Shown one piece after another: positions 3-22,120 of a DNA stretch of 64,000 nucleotides. Positions within the stretch are counted from its first letter, which is position 1. Each line of letters starts with the position of its first letter. The notes beneath the pieces were generated by a model. That model was not told the origin of the DNA and made no database searches. It saw nothing but the letters and a program-made list of their open reading frames with translations. The DNA is taken from NCBI RefSeq assembly GCF_002837275.1, contig NZ_NXIF01000026.1, forward strand, positions 1-64,000. The letters are read 5' to 3'. Both the position numbers and the translations under genes were made by a program. The stretch comes from Malaciobacter halophilus. Lineage in GTDB: Bacteria; Campylobacterota; Campylobacteria; Campylobacterales; Arcobacteraceae.

Positions 3-164
3 CCAGTGCCTTTTGAAAAAATACAGAATTATATTTATAGGGATGAAATTAATGATATAGGTAGATTAAGAGCATTAATATATAGACTTAAACAAAAATT
101 TGAAATTAATTTCATAGAGAATGTATTTGATTTAGGTTATAAATTAAAACTATTAGATGATTAA
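3..164 (+). CDS. Response regulator, C-terminal fragment (winged helix)
   Basis: Only the last 53 residues are inside the window, so this is the 3' end of a larger gene. The visible part has the recognition-helix and wing pattern of an OmpR/PhoB-type DNA-binding domain: a segment like RLRALIYRLKQK, then a turn and ENVFDLGYKL. The stop codon overlaps the start of the downstream histidine kinase by 8 bases, an arrangement typical of translationally coupled two-component pairs. The receiver domain and its phosphoacceptor aspartate are outside the window, so the family rests on the C-terminal motif and the neighbour. The target genes cannot be inferred from this fragment. Confidence 0.75.
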   Translation, partial: PVPFEKIQNYIYRDEINDIGRLRALIYRLKQKFEINFIENVFDLGYKLKLLDD

Positions 165-1980
165 AATAAACTCTTTAAACTCAAAAATTTTCTTAAGCTT
201 TTTTATTTTAGGTATTTTTTTGTTGTCTTTATTTTTTTTGCAAGTTATTCCTCAAATGAATAAAGAGGAAAAAGAGCATACAATAAAGCAAATAGAGAAT
301 ATGATATATTTAACTAATCAACAAATAAAACTTGTTATGCGTTCAAAAAAGAATAATGGAGAAATTAGAAAAGAAGAGTTGAAGTCTATAATTGAACATG
401 AAGCAATTAGAATCACAAATAGATTAAATTTAGATAATTCAATATCTAAAATAAAAGATAAATCATATCAGTTTAGTTCAAAAAAAATTACTTGTAATAC
501 TTCTATTTTAAACAGTAATAAACATACTCTTTTTCAATTAAAAGATGAGAGTTTCAAAGAGTTTAAAGATGAATTAAAAGATTCGACTTTTTTAAGAAGA
601 GATATAAAAGATAAATATATATGTTCAACTGGAATAAGAAAATTATACTATACAAAAAAGATTAAAAAGCATAATAAGTTTTTAGTTATCTCTTGTGATA
701 TAGATAACTTTTCTACAAAAGGTGAAGAGTTTGAATTAAAATTAAAAAAAGAGATACAAAAGAGCTTTTCATTGCTTGATAGTTTTCATAAAGGTAAAGC
801 ATACTTAATGTGGCTTAATCCAAATATAAAAGATGATAAACCTTTATATAGTAAAGAAGACAGATATTTAAATGAAAAATATTGTTTGAGCAAAATATCA
901 AATTTTACATTTCCCAAAACAGGAGATTTGACACCCAAAGAGATTATACAAGCTATTGATAAAGAACCAATAAATCATTTACTAAATGGAAAAAAGAGTT
1001 TAACATGGGTAAAAAGTATTAATTTAAATAAAGATGAATATTTTTTATATCTTGTAACAATTTACGAAAAAGATTTTTTAAAACATGTAGGTTTAGCTTA
1101 TATGAGTATAATTCCTGCTGCAATTATCTCTTTTTTTATCGCAATAGTTGTTGCGCTTATTATATTTAATAGACTTTTTAAAAGTATAAATATTTTAAAA
1201 AATGTTGCATTTAAAGTTAATAAAGGAGAAAAAAATATAAGAAGTAATATAAAAGGCAAAGATGATATTGCAGTACTTGCAAAAGCTTTTGATAATATGC
1301 TGAACTCTTTAGAGGAAAATATTTCACTTTTAGATAAAAAAGTTGAAATTAAAACAAAACTTTTAAGTGATTCTTTAAAAGAGAAAGAGACTTTACTAAA
1401 AGAGATACATCATAGAGTAAAAAATAATTTAGCAATTACAATAGATTTAATTAAATTAGAAAAATCAAAAATCAAAGATAAAAAGACAAAAGATACTTTA
1501 ACAAATATACAAGAGAAAATTTTTGTAATGGAGCTACTTCATAGAAAATTATATGAATCTAAAGATTTAAATCTTATTCCTTTAAGAAATTTTATTGAAG
1601 AAATTTGCCAAGATTTAACTGCAAGTTATTTTGTTGAAGAAAAAATATCTATTAATACAGATATAGAGCAAATACATATGAATATTGATTATGCATTACC
1701 TTTAGGTCTTATAATAACTGAATTAATAACAAATAGTTTTAAATATGCTTTTAAAGATAAAGGAGAGATATTTGTAAGTTTAAAAAAAAGTGATAAAAGA
1801 TATATTTTGAAAGTAAAAGATAATGGAAAAGGTCTTGATAAAAATATAGATGTTAATAATACTAAAACTTTAGGTTTTCAAATAATTTCAAATATTGCAA
1901 AAGGACAATTATCCAGTAAACTTGAATACTTTTATGAAAAAGGAGCTACCTTTCAAATCATTTTTGAGATTAAAAGATAG
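157..1980 (+). CDS. Membrane sensor histidine kinase (HisKA_2 type)
   Basis: A 607-residue sensor kinase. A first membrane segment lies near residues 10-30. About 280 residues of putative periplasmic sensor follow, then a second membrane segment near 313-338, a HAMP-like linker and coiled coil (about 340-415), a HisKA_2 dimerisation domain and a C-terminal HATPase domain. The H-box reads EIHHRVKNNL with the phosphoacceptor His near residue 418. The ATPase N-box contains ELITNSFKYAF and the G1 box DNGKGL. The sensor region looks Cache-like by its position and a long leading helix, but I cannot name the ligand. It overlaps the upstream response regulator by 8 bases and should phosphorylate it. 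HisKA_2 kinases paired with an OmpR-type regulator are less common than classical HisKA ones. Confidence 0.9.
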   Translation: MIKINSLNSKIFLSFFILGIFLLSLFFLQVIPQMNKEEKEHTIKQIENMIYLTNQQIKLVMRSKKNNGEIRKEELKSIIEHEAIRITNRLNLDNSISKIKDKSYQFSSKKITCNTSILNSNKHTLFQLKDESFKEFKDELKDSTFLRRDIKDKYICSTGIRKLYYTKKIKKHNKFLVISCDIDNFSTKGEEFELKLKKEIQKSFSLLDSFHKGKAYLMWLNPNIKDDKPLYSKEDRYLNEKYCLSKISNFTFPKTGDLTPKEIIQAIDKEPINHLLNGKKSLTWVKSINLNKDEYFLYLVTIYEKDFLKHVGLAYMSIIPAAIISFFIAIVVALIIFNRLFKSINILKNVAFKVNKGEKNIRSNIKGKDDIAVLAKAFDNMLNSLEENISLLDKKVEIKTKLLSDSLKEKETLLKEIHHRVKNNLAITIDLIKLEKSKIKDKKTKDTLTNIQEKIFVMELLHRKLYESKDLNLIPLRNFIEEICQDLTASYFVEEKISINTDIEQIHMNIDYALPLGLIITELITNSFKYAFKDKGEIFVSLKKSDKRYILKVKDNGKGLDKNIDVNNTKTLGFQIISNIAKGQLSSKLEYFYEKGATFQIIFEIKR

Positions 1981-1993
1981 CTTCTATTTAAGA

Positions 1994-2089
1994 CTATTTC
2001 TCTTTTACAAAAAGCCCAACAGTCCAACTAAATCCAACAAATGCTAGAATAGTAAAAACTATAAATAGTAAAATTTCTGCAATAAACAT
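1994..2089 (-). CDS. 31-residue single-span membrane peptide
   Basis: A very short reading frame with strong start signals. On the minus strand an AGGGAAGGAAG purine tract ends directly before the ATG. The product begins MFIAEILLFIVFTILAF, continues with one hydrophobic helix of about 25 residues, and ends in the charged tail VKEK. It resembles small respiratory or transporter accessory peptides in size and layout, but I recognise no specific family. It lies just downstream of the UDG-like gene on the same strand, with a perfect palindrome between them, and converges with the histidine kinase. The good ribosome site, clean membrane profile and operator-like palindrome argue for a real gene; expression is not shown. 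Confidence 0.6.
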   Translation of the reverse strand: MFIAEILLFIVFTILAFVGFSWTVGLFVKEK

Positions 2090-2104
2090 CTTCCTTCCCT
2101 TATT

Positions 2105-2128
2105 ATAAATGAATGCTCATTCATTTAT
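2105..2128. promoter_or_regulatory. 24-bp perfect palindrome, TetR-type operator candidate
   Basis: Two 11-base arms, ATAAATGAATG and CATTCATTTAT, flank a 2-base centre. The core TGAATG-CT-CATTCA resembles operators of TetR-family lipid regulators such as Bacillus FadR. It sits 16 bases upstream of the ATG of the 31-residue peptide, next to its ribosome site, so a bound protein would block transcription into that gene. A TATAAT overlaps its proximal edge but is too near the start codon to be the only promoter. Operator function is inference. Confidence 0.6.
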
Positions 2129-2167
2129 CTAATAATTAATTTTAGGCTATTTTATATTATAGAGTAA

Positions 2168-2824
2168 TTAACTAAATGCTATTTTATATTCATCTACTCT
2201 AAAATCAAATGTTGAATAGTTATAATTACTCATTTTTCTTTTTTTGTAAAGTAAATTAGTAGCTATTGAACGGTTTGCAGCATTTGAAGGCGAAGTTAAA
2301 CTATAAATAGTAATAACTCTATTTTCAAAACTAAGTAGATGTTTTCTAATTTGATTATTTTCAATTTTTTGTAGTTTTAAGTTATTCTTTTTTATAAGTT
2401 TTCTAAAAAAGAATTCTGGTCCATTTTTACTATTTTTCCCTGTAAAAATAATCTTTTTTATATTCTTATATTCTTTTAAATAAGAAATTAAATCTCTTAA
2501 TATAATATCTTGCATTCCTAAATCACTTGCGTCAATATTCTCTCTTTTACATGATGCAACAATATCACAAATACCAATTTTATAAGATTTAAGAAACTCT
2601 TTTCTTTGTTTTATTGCATCTTTTGAATTATCATAAAGAAGATTTAGATTATAAATTTTATCTAATACTTGCCATAAAAGATTATCTTGTGAGCCATAAC
2701 AAAAATCAACATCTTTAGATTTAAAACTTTTTTTTGAGAATCTAAAAGGAGGTAATGTTCCAATAATTAAAGTTTTTGTATTTTTAAAAATAAAAGGTTT
2801 GTATGGATGAAAATGCAAAAACAA
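2168..2824 (-). CDS. Uracil-DNA glycosylase superfamily protein
   Basis: A 218-residue protein with marks of the UDG superfamily. An N-terminal strand leads into GTLPP (about residues 23-27), followed by CYGSQDNLLWQVL, which matches the family pattern of a small motif followed by N-x-L/F-W. Further on are GICDIVASC and a C-terminal LTSPSNAANRS, in the position of the serine/proline DNA-intercalating loop. These proteins excise uracil, hypoxanthine or mismatched bases, and this layout is closest to the branch often annotated DNA-deoxyinosine or mismatch-specific glycosylase. Substrate specificity cannot be read from the sequence. It is transcribed away from murI and may be cotranscribed with the downstream 31-residue peptide. 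Confidence 0.75.
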   Translation of the reverse strand: MFLHFHPYKPFIFKNTKTLIIGTLPPFRFSKKSFKSKDVDFCYGSQDNLLWQVLDKIYNLNLLYDNSKDAIKQRKEFLKSYKIGICDIVASCKRENIDASDLGMQDIILRDLISYLKEYKNIKKIIFTGKNSKNGPEFFFRKLIKKNNLKLQKIENNQIRKHLLSFENRVITIYSLTSPSNAANRSIATNLLYKKRKMSNYNYSTFDFRVDEYKIAFS

Positions 2825-21550: not shown

Positions 21551-22120
21551 ATGAATAATACAAGAGAAAAACTTCTAACAGTAGCCTTTGATGAGATATA
21601 TCATCATGGCTACTCTGCAACTTCTGTTGATAAGATTTTAAAAAAAGCAAATATGAACAAAGGAAGTATGTATCACTTTTTTAAGTCTAAAAAAGAGTTA
21701 GCTCTTGCTGTTATAAATGAAAAAGTAAATGCTTATATTGAAGATAAATATAGTGTATTATTAGAGTATGAAGAGAATATCTGTGATGAAATGATGCAGA
21801 TGATAAAAAAAAGAGATAATTTTGATTTTACATCTGGATGTAAACTAAATAATCTTATGCAAGAATTATCTCCTATTGACAAAGATTTTAAAGTAGCTTT
21901 AGAGATTGTTTATAAAAAATTTGAAAATATTTTTGAAAAAGTATTAGATAAAGCAATAGCAAAAAATGAAATTTCTCACAATGACACAAAAGCACTCTCT
22001 ATGTATATAGTAGCTTCAATTGAAGGGTGTATAGGCACAGCAAAAAAATCTCAAGATGCAAGTTGTTTTACAACTTGTATTTCTCAACTAGAACTATTTT
22101 TAAACACACTTAAAAAATAA
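21551..22120 (+). CDS. TetR-family transcriptional regulator
   Basis: A 189-residue repressor-type protein. The N-terminal helix-turn-helix is clear (GYSATSVDKILKKANMNKGS, then MYHFFKSKKELAL). The C-terminal ligand domain includes SGCKLNNLMQELSPIDKDF, a pattern shared with the NemR/YezE-like branch that senses electrophiles or small aromatics. It lies 9 bases after folA but reads toward a promoter with two palindromes, which is probably its own target. A four-cysteine content (including CFTTC) is compatible with thiol-based sensing, but this is inference. Confidence 0.9.
   Translation: MNNTREKLLTVAFDEIYHHGYSATSVDKILKKANMNKGSMYHFFKSKKELALAVINEKVNAYIEDKYSVLLEYEENICDEMMQMIKKRDNFDFTSGCKLNNLMQELSPIDKDFKVALEIVYKKFENIFEKVLDKAIAKNEISHNDTKALSMYIVASIEGCIGTAKKSQDASCFTTCISQLELFLNTLKK

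Follow-up and report, generated by a model that had tools for sequence, protein, structure and literature searches.

The micropeptide locus

The window (the whole stretch of DNA analysed, 64,000 nucleotides) contains a gene for a 31-aa peptide with one predicted transmembrane (TM) helix, MFIAEILLFIVFTILAFVGFSWTVGLFVKEK, encoded at 2089-1994 on the minus strand. The sequence-only reading had placed a small open frame and a perfect 11-2-11 palindrome at 1994-2128. Both are present there, and the strand, which it had omitted, is the minus strand. The features are as follows.

1994..2089, minus strand: gene of the 31-aa single-TM peptide, type A paralogue (start ATG 2089-2087, stop TAG 1996-1994), recognised from the open reading frame and its conservation
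2090..2100, minus strand: ribosome-binding site AGGGAAGGAAG, recognised from sequence, purine-rich and abutting the ATG; a purine-rich site is kept in orthologues
2105..2128, no strand: operator palindrome ATAAATGAATG-CT-CATTCATTTAT with core ATGAATGNNYRTTCAT, perfect, with 11-bp arms and a 2-bp spacer
2139..2144, minus strand: candidate -10 box TAAAAT, with the operator edge 10 bp downstream; the upstream alignment was judged by eye
2168..2824, minus strand: upstream neighbour, a uracil/hypoxanthine-DNA-glycosylase-like (UDG-like) gene (TIGR04274, E 8.8e-15, below cut-off)

The palindrome is placed between the leftward-reading peptide gene and the UDG-like gene. The latter is on the same strand, is probably not part of the same unit, and is absent beside the operator-peptide unit of genome G014. 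A gene encoding a HisKA_2-type sensor histidine kinase (157-1980, plus strand) converges on the peptide gene.

Conservation and coding status of the peptide

Each of the six genomes of the genus has the peptide (65-81% identical to the window copy), as do two other genera of the family, g19 and g10; the relatives of the window include Arcobacter sp. CECT 8985. Among 397 genomes of the class, no convincing match was found outside the family, and two marginal matches in other families lie in long frames. Within the genus, dN was 0.01-0.22 and dS 0.10-3.4 (one pair saturated), and the pairwise differences at codon positions 1, 2 and 3 were 78, 37 and 178. Since dN is far below dS and third-position changes dominate, the reading frame is indicated to be coding and under purifying selection. 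M1, E5, I6, F9, F17, S21, F27 and V28 were invariant in the first nine peptide sequences. Scans of nine members against Pfam and NCBIfam gave only chance-level matches, none above cut-off; the models for CydX/YbgT, CcoS and other small respiratory subunits in Pfam gave no match, nor did any family of the stress peptide/type I toxin class (TisB/Ldr/Hok). From its pattern of substitution, the 31-residue frame is almost certainly a real coding gene. The search of relatives had been set beforehand as the test that could refute the sequence-only reading, and start, stop and palindrome were all found conserved; the view that this is an easily missed micropeptide gene with its own ribosome site thus stands, as the frame is coding and a purine-rich site precedes the ATG.

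Paralogues with and without the operator

Two kinds of paralogue were distinguished among 40 copies in the fetched loci (duplicates removed). Type A, comprising 20 of the 40, has the operator 13-29 bp ahead of the ATG, with no more than one mismatch, and TGAAT and TTCAT are invariant in all 20 sites. In the remaining 20 copies the best operator match has 4-6 mismatches, that is, nothing resembling the operator. The proposal of a TetR-style operator was upheld, the palindrome being present in every one of the 20 type A copies and in none of the 20 other paralogues. Many of the operator-free copies (type B) adjoin hisIE in several genera, and in g19 a further operator-free set is found close to the metNIQ-rho region. 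In loci L141, L142, L143 and L144 of that genus, these extra paralogues (MFLTEIAIFVxCGL...) are flanked by metNIQ-like genes and rho, at a distance of about 3-4 kb from the type A copy. The peptide family thus comprises three lineages or more.

The type A copies were found in at least three settings: beside the DNA-glycosylase-like gene in most genomes, near murI and a metQ-like gene in G023, and at an unrelated place in G014, where they form a tandem pair with an operator each. Because the neighbourhoods differ, the operator travels with the peptide and not with the neighbour. A spurious frame, with an operator acting only for a neighbouring gene or a small RNA, might be suspected from the short length and the missing family, but it is extremely improbable given the substitution pattern (dN far below dS, third-position changes prevailing), the fact that start, stop and ribosome site are all conserved, and the persistence of the operator-peptide unit while its neighbours vary.

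When the intergenic stretch was base-shuffled, 18 of 20,000 versions contained an arm of at least 11, and perfect palindromes of this length occur at about ten other places in the window. With so many others as long, the palindrome alone is not compelling, and conservation must carry the case. TAAAAT (most of the genus) or TATACT (several other genomes) was seen by eye about 10-14 bp ahead of the operator, and a positional TATAAT scan over all peptide copies gave no clear peak. With this -10 box, judged by eye, the operator is predicted to overlap the expected transcription start of the peptide gene, and the arrangement would therefore be repressor-like.

Operator sites at other promoters

Operator sites in the own genome, from which the window derives, were located by pattern searches. 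With one mismatch allowed, the pattern was no commoner than its backward control, so the number of sites proves nothing and position is what counts. The best sites were that of the peptide gene and a pair, 67 bp apart, in the promoter region of the [NiFe]-hydrogenase (hya) operon; next came sites before hypB and before a molybdoenzyme (Mo-enzyme) operon. A repeated ATAAAAGTTTGTTCATTCAT match (C57:49535) was dropped, as it falls within a long coding sequence resembling that of an efflux pump.

Across the family, the palindrome marks the promoters of [NiFe]-hydrogenases in about ten genera, and hydrogenase small-subunit promoters with one to three sites were observed in g1, g6, g9, g10, g11, g14 and g19 and in genera with a divergent TetR. 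The promoter of the Psr/Phs-like molybdoenzyme carries a site with at most two mismatches, 75-96 bp before the start, in 11/11 loci of g1 and g19, and 0/8 loci checked from other genera had one. Sites were also found in single genomes before nrfH, dcuA and an NrfD operon. In G003, perfect-match operators precede the NrfD operon and a gene for a DcuA/DcuB-type C4-dicarboxylate transporter (L113:9527 and L115:9688), which suggests regulon extensions in single species.

Since the same palindrome stands at the hydrogenase, hypB, molybdoenzyme, nrfH and tetR promoters, it is not private to the peptide gene, contrary to the expectation of a dedicated operator. Nor did the supposed lipid, efflux or stress link hold, as the operator marks genes of hydrogen metabolism and anaerobic respiration. 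Judged from the placement of these sites, the peptide is very probably a member of a hydrogenase regulon. A specific tie between the peptide and the Psr/Phs-like molybdoenzyme was rejected, because several genomes have the peptide without that enzyme.

Candidate TetR-family regulator

The regulator had been expected not to be adjacent to the peptide gene, and the candidate is indeed encoded elsewhere, beside hupSL and the hydrogenases. It is a 197-residue TetR-family protein (TetR_N domain PF00440, E 8.4e-14), and its gene lies directly before a hydrogenase small/large subunit pair (hupSL) and two membrane hydrogenase operons. This TetR was present in 67/104 genomes of the family and in 19/19 genomes with the type A peptide, a co-occurrence that is phylogenetic, the genomes not being independent. 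The TetR scan of the collection returned four named loci. The window has a TetR gene of its own (21572-21712), which is not an orthologue of the hydrogenase-linked one.

A site in the tetR promoter itself was found in G000, G001, G003 and six g19 loci, with near-matches in a few others; it lies about 52-60 bp before the start in part of g1 and in g19. G002, G004, G005 and most of g11 have a poor site there or none. The contrast rated as the best single test is that of the nrfH promoters of genus g11, where a site with at most two mismatches was present in 4/4 genomes with TetR and in 0/2 without it (background matches of four and five mismatches), although these numbers are small. At least three of the four TetR-positive g11 nrfH promoters also contain, apart from the operator, a TTGA-N6-TCAA box that on inspection looks Fnr-like.

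The hydrogenase-linked TetR is thus the likely regulator of the operator, to which it is predicted to bind. It is unlikely that the operator belongs to another regulator of general anaerobic respiration, for example of the Crp/Fnr type, with this TetR as a bystander. The target genes are anaerobic-respiration genes, the inner TGAAT-N4-ATTCA can be read as a Crp/Fnr-like site, and several genomes have a weak tetR promoter site or none, all of which would fit such a regulator. However, the nrfH operator accompanies TetR in g11, next to a distinct Fnr-like box in at least three genomes, and is missing from the two TetR-negative ones; the length (16-24 bp) and palindromic form of the operator suit TetR; and the sites cluster in the tetR-hydrogenase region.

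The start codon of tetR varies: it is TTG in g1 and most of g19 and ATG in two g19 loci, and in many genomes of g11 and some other genera (L167-L190) ATT or ATA seems to serve as the start. Such rare start codons may limit the amount of repressor. In the own genome, the tetR orthologue (G000:C97:2982-3569, L191), 91% identical to that of G003, has an in-frame TAA at codon 20 (ALKLF*TKGFYN) ahead of an intact hupSL; this could be a nonsense mutation or stem from an assembly error. If the stop is real, regulation would be lost or altered in this strain, and its peptide copy may be deregulated.

Hydrogenase pair encoded next to the regulator

In the own genome, the small subunit of the HupSL pair has no Tat signal peptide (by eye), and the large subunit ends ...CSVCTTH without a processed extension. 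In this pair (L191:3562-5810) and its orthologues, the small subunit has CNGN where CxxC is usual, and the large subunit stops at the CTTH motif. Such features are reminiscent of H2-sensing hydrogenases. The HupUV/HoxBC-like traits are not decisive, because other cytoplasmic group 2 hydrogenases may share them. The pair is named as the uptake hydrogenase hupSL in the Arcobacter butzleri genome paper (PMC2147049). A new H2-signalling design, in which a HupUV-like pair would report H2 directly to a TetR repressor and so replace the kinase/NtrC pathway, with a micropeptide as an output that retunes the respiratory membrane, is conceivable, though we regard it as speculative.

Proposed mechanism and function of the peptide

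On balance, we favour the explanation that the peptide is an inner-membrane component of a TetR-repressed hydrogen/anaerobic-respiration regulon of Arcobacteraceae, where it would tune a membrane complex. The repressor, whose gene immediately precedes hupSL and the hydrogenase operons, would bind the ATGAATGNNYRTTCAT sites, and at the peptide promoter, with the site lying over the presumed transcription start, it would block initiation. Its release by H2 or by a redox or metabolite signal would then allow the [NiFe]-hydrogenase operons, hypB and the peptide to be made together, along with the Psr/Phs-like molybdoenzyme and nrfH in some genomes. The peptide would insert into the membrane as a single helix followed by a charged C-terminal tail, and would tune or stabilise a membrane complex under the conditions of the regulon. 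The type B paralogue beside hisIE, operator-free and constitutive-looking, would do the same job at other times. This scheme predicts that the peptide is produced during H2 oxidation or at low oxygen.

As to what the peptide does, a small modulator of respiratory membrane complexes is our best guess, a tentative one, with the membrane location being predicted. The main alternative is a toxic or membrane-depolarising stress peptide like TisB or YohP, whose repressor-controlled production would slow the cell upon a change of conditions. Its size and one-helix layout resemble TisB and YohP, and the operator lies over the presumed promoter, but a regulon of energy-conserving enzymes would be odd company for a depolarising peptide, and both the strong conservation and the constitutive-looking paralogues in a stable position speak against this role, which we consider improbable.

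Slightly less probable still is a structural small subunit of a hydrogenase or of its cytochrome b. The operator is common to both membrane hydrogenase operons, as would suit such a subunit, but the gene is located away from the hydrogenase clusters and paralogues without the operator exist. Many genomes with TetR and the same hydrogenase cluster have no type A peptide (genus g11), and g9 and g14 have type B only. Because so many hydrogenase-bearing genomes do without it, the peptide is not a required hydrogenase subunit.

With the regulon reading, an anonymous micro-ORF becomes a testable member of a defined regulon. Micropeptides seldom have a functional context, and here the regulon would tell when the peptide is made and with what. 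A regulator and an operator are also predicted for hydrogen oxidation across much of Arcobacteraceae, and within the open-licence literature available, a candidate repressor for this hydrogenase gene set was previously unreported.

Comparison with known systems

Known hydrogenase regulators include HoxA/HupR, which work with HupUV/HoxBC sensors. In Helicobacter, the hydrogenase is under nickel and iron control through NikR and Fur, according to a review on respiratory regulation in Campylobacterota (PMC6682613). The system described here resembles HoxA/HupR, NikR and Fur in the coordinate control of hydrogenase and in the sensor-like hydrogenase pair adjoining the regulator, but differs in that the candidate regulator is of the TetR family, with a palindrome of 16-24 bp. 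A TetR regulator of hydrogenase was not found in the accessible text of that review nor in the other open-licence literature available. The hydrogenase cluster of A. butzleri, hupSL-hydABC-hyaABC (PMC2147049), is the same cluster of three [NiFe]-hydrogenases, whereas no link to a TetR, an operator or a peptide is mentioned in the available text of that paper.

Among small membrane peptides, YohP of Escherichia coli (27 aa) lowers the membrane potential and causes metabolic silencing, as described in PMC12719787. The window peptide is like YohP and similar E. coli membrane stress peptides of fewer than 50 residues in having about 30 residues, one predicted helix and expression controlled by conditions, but no sequence relation was found with the libraries used, and its operator is common with hydrogenases. 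TisB is likewise similar to the window peptide in size and one-helix layout. CydX and AppX are small accessory subunits of bd oxidase, and the E. coli gene for AppX lies in a hydrogenase-linked regulon. Although the window peptide has no Pfam match to such families and is not in the operon of a complex, it is, like them, a one-helix peptide of about 30 aa that would be made together with respiratory enzymes.
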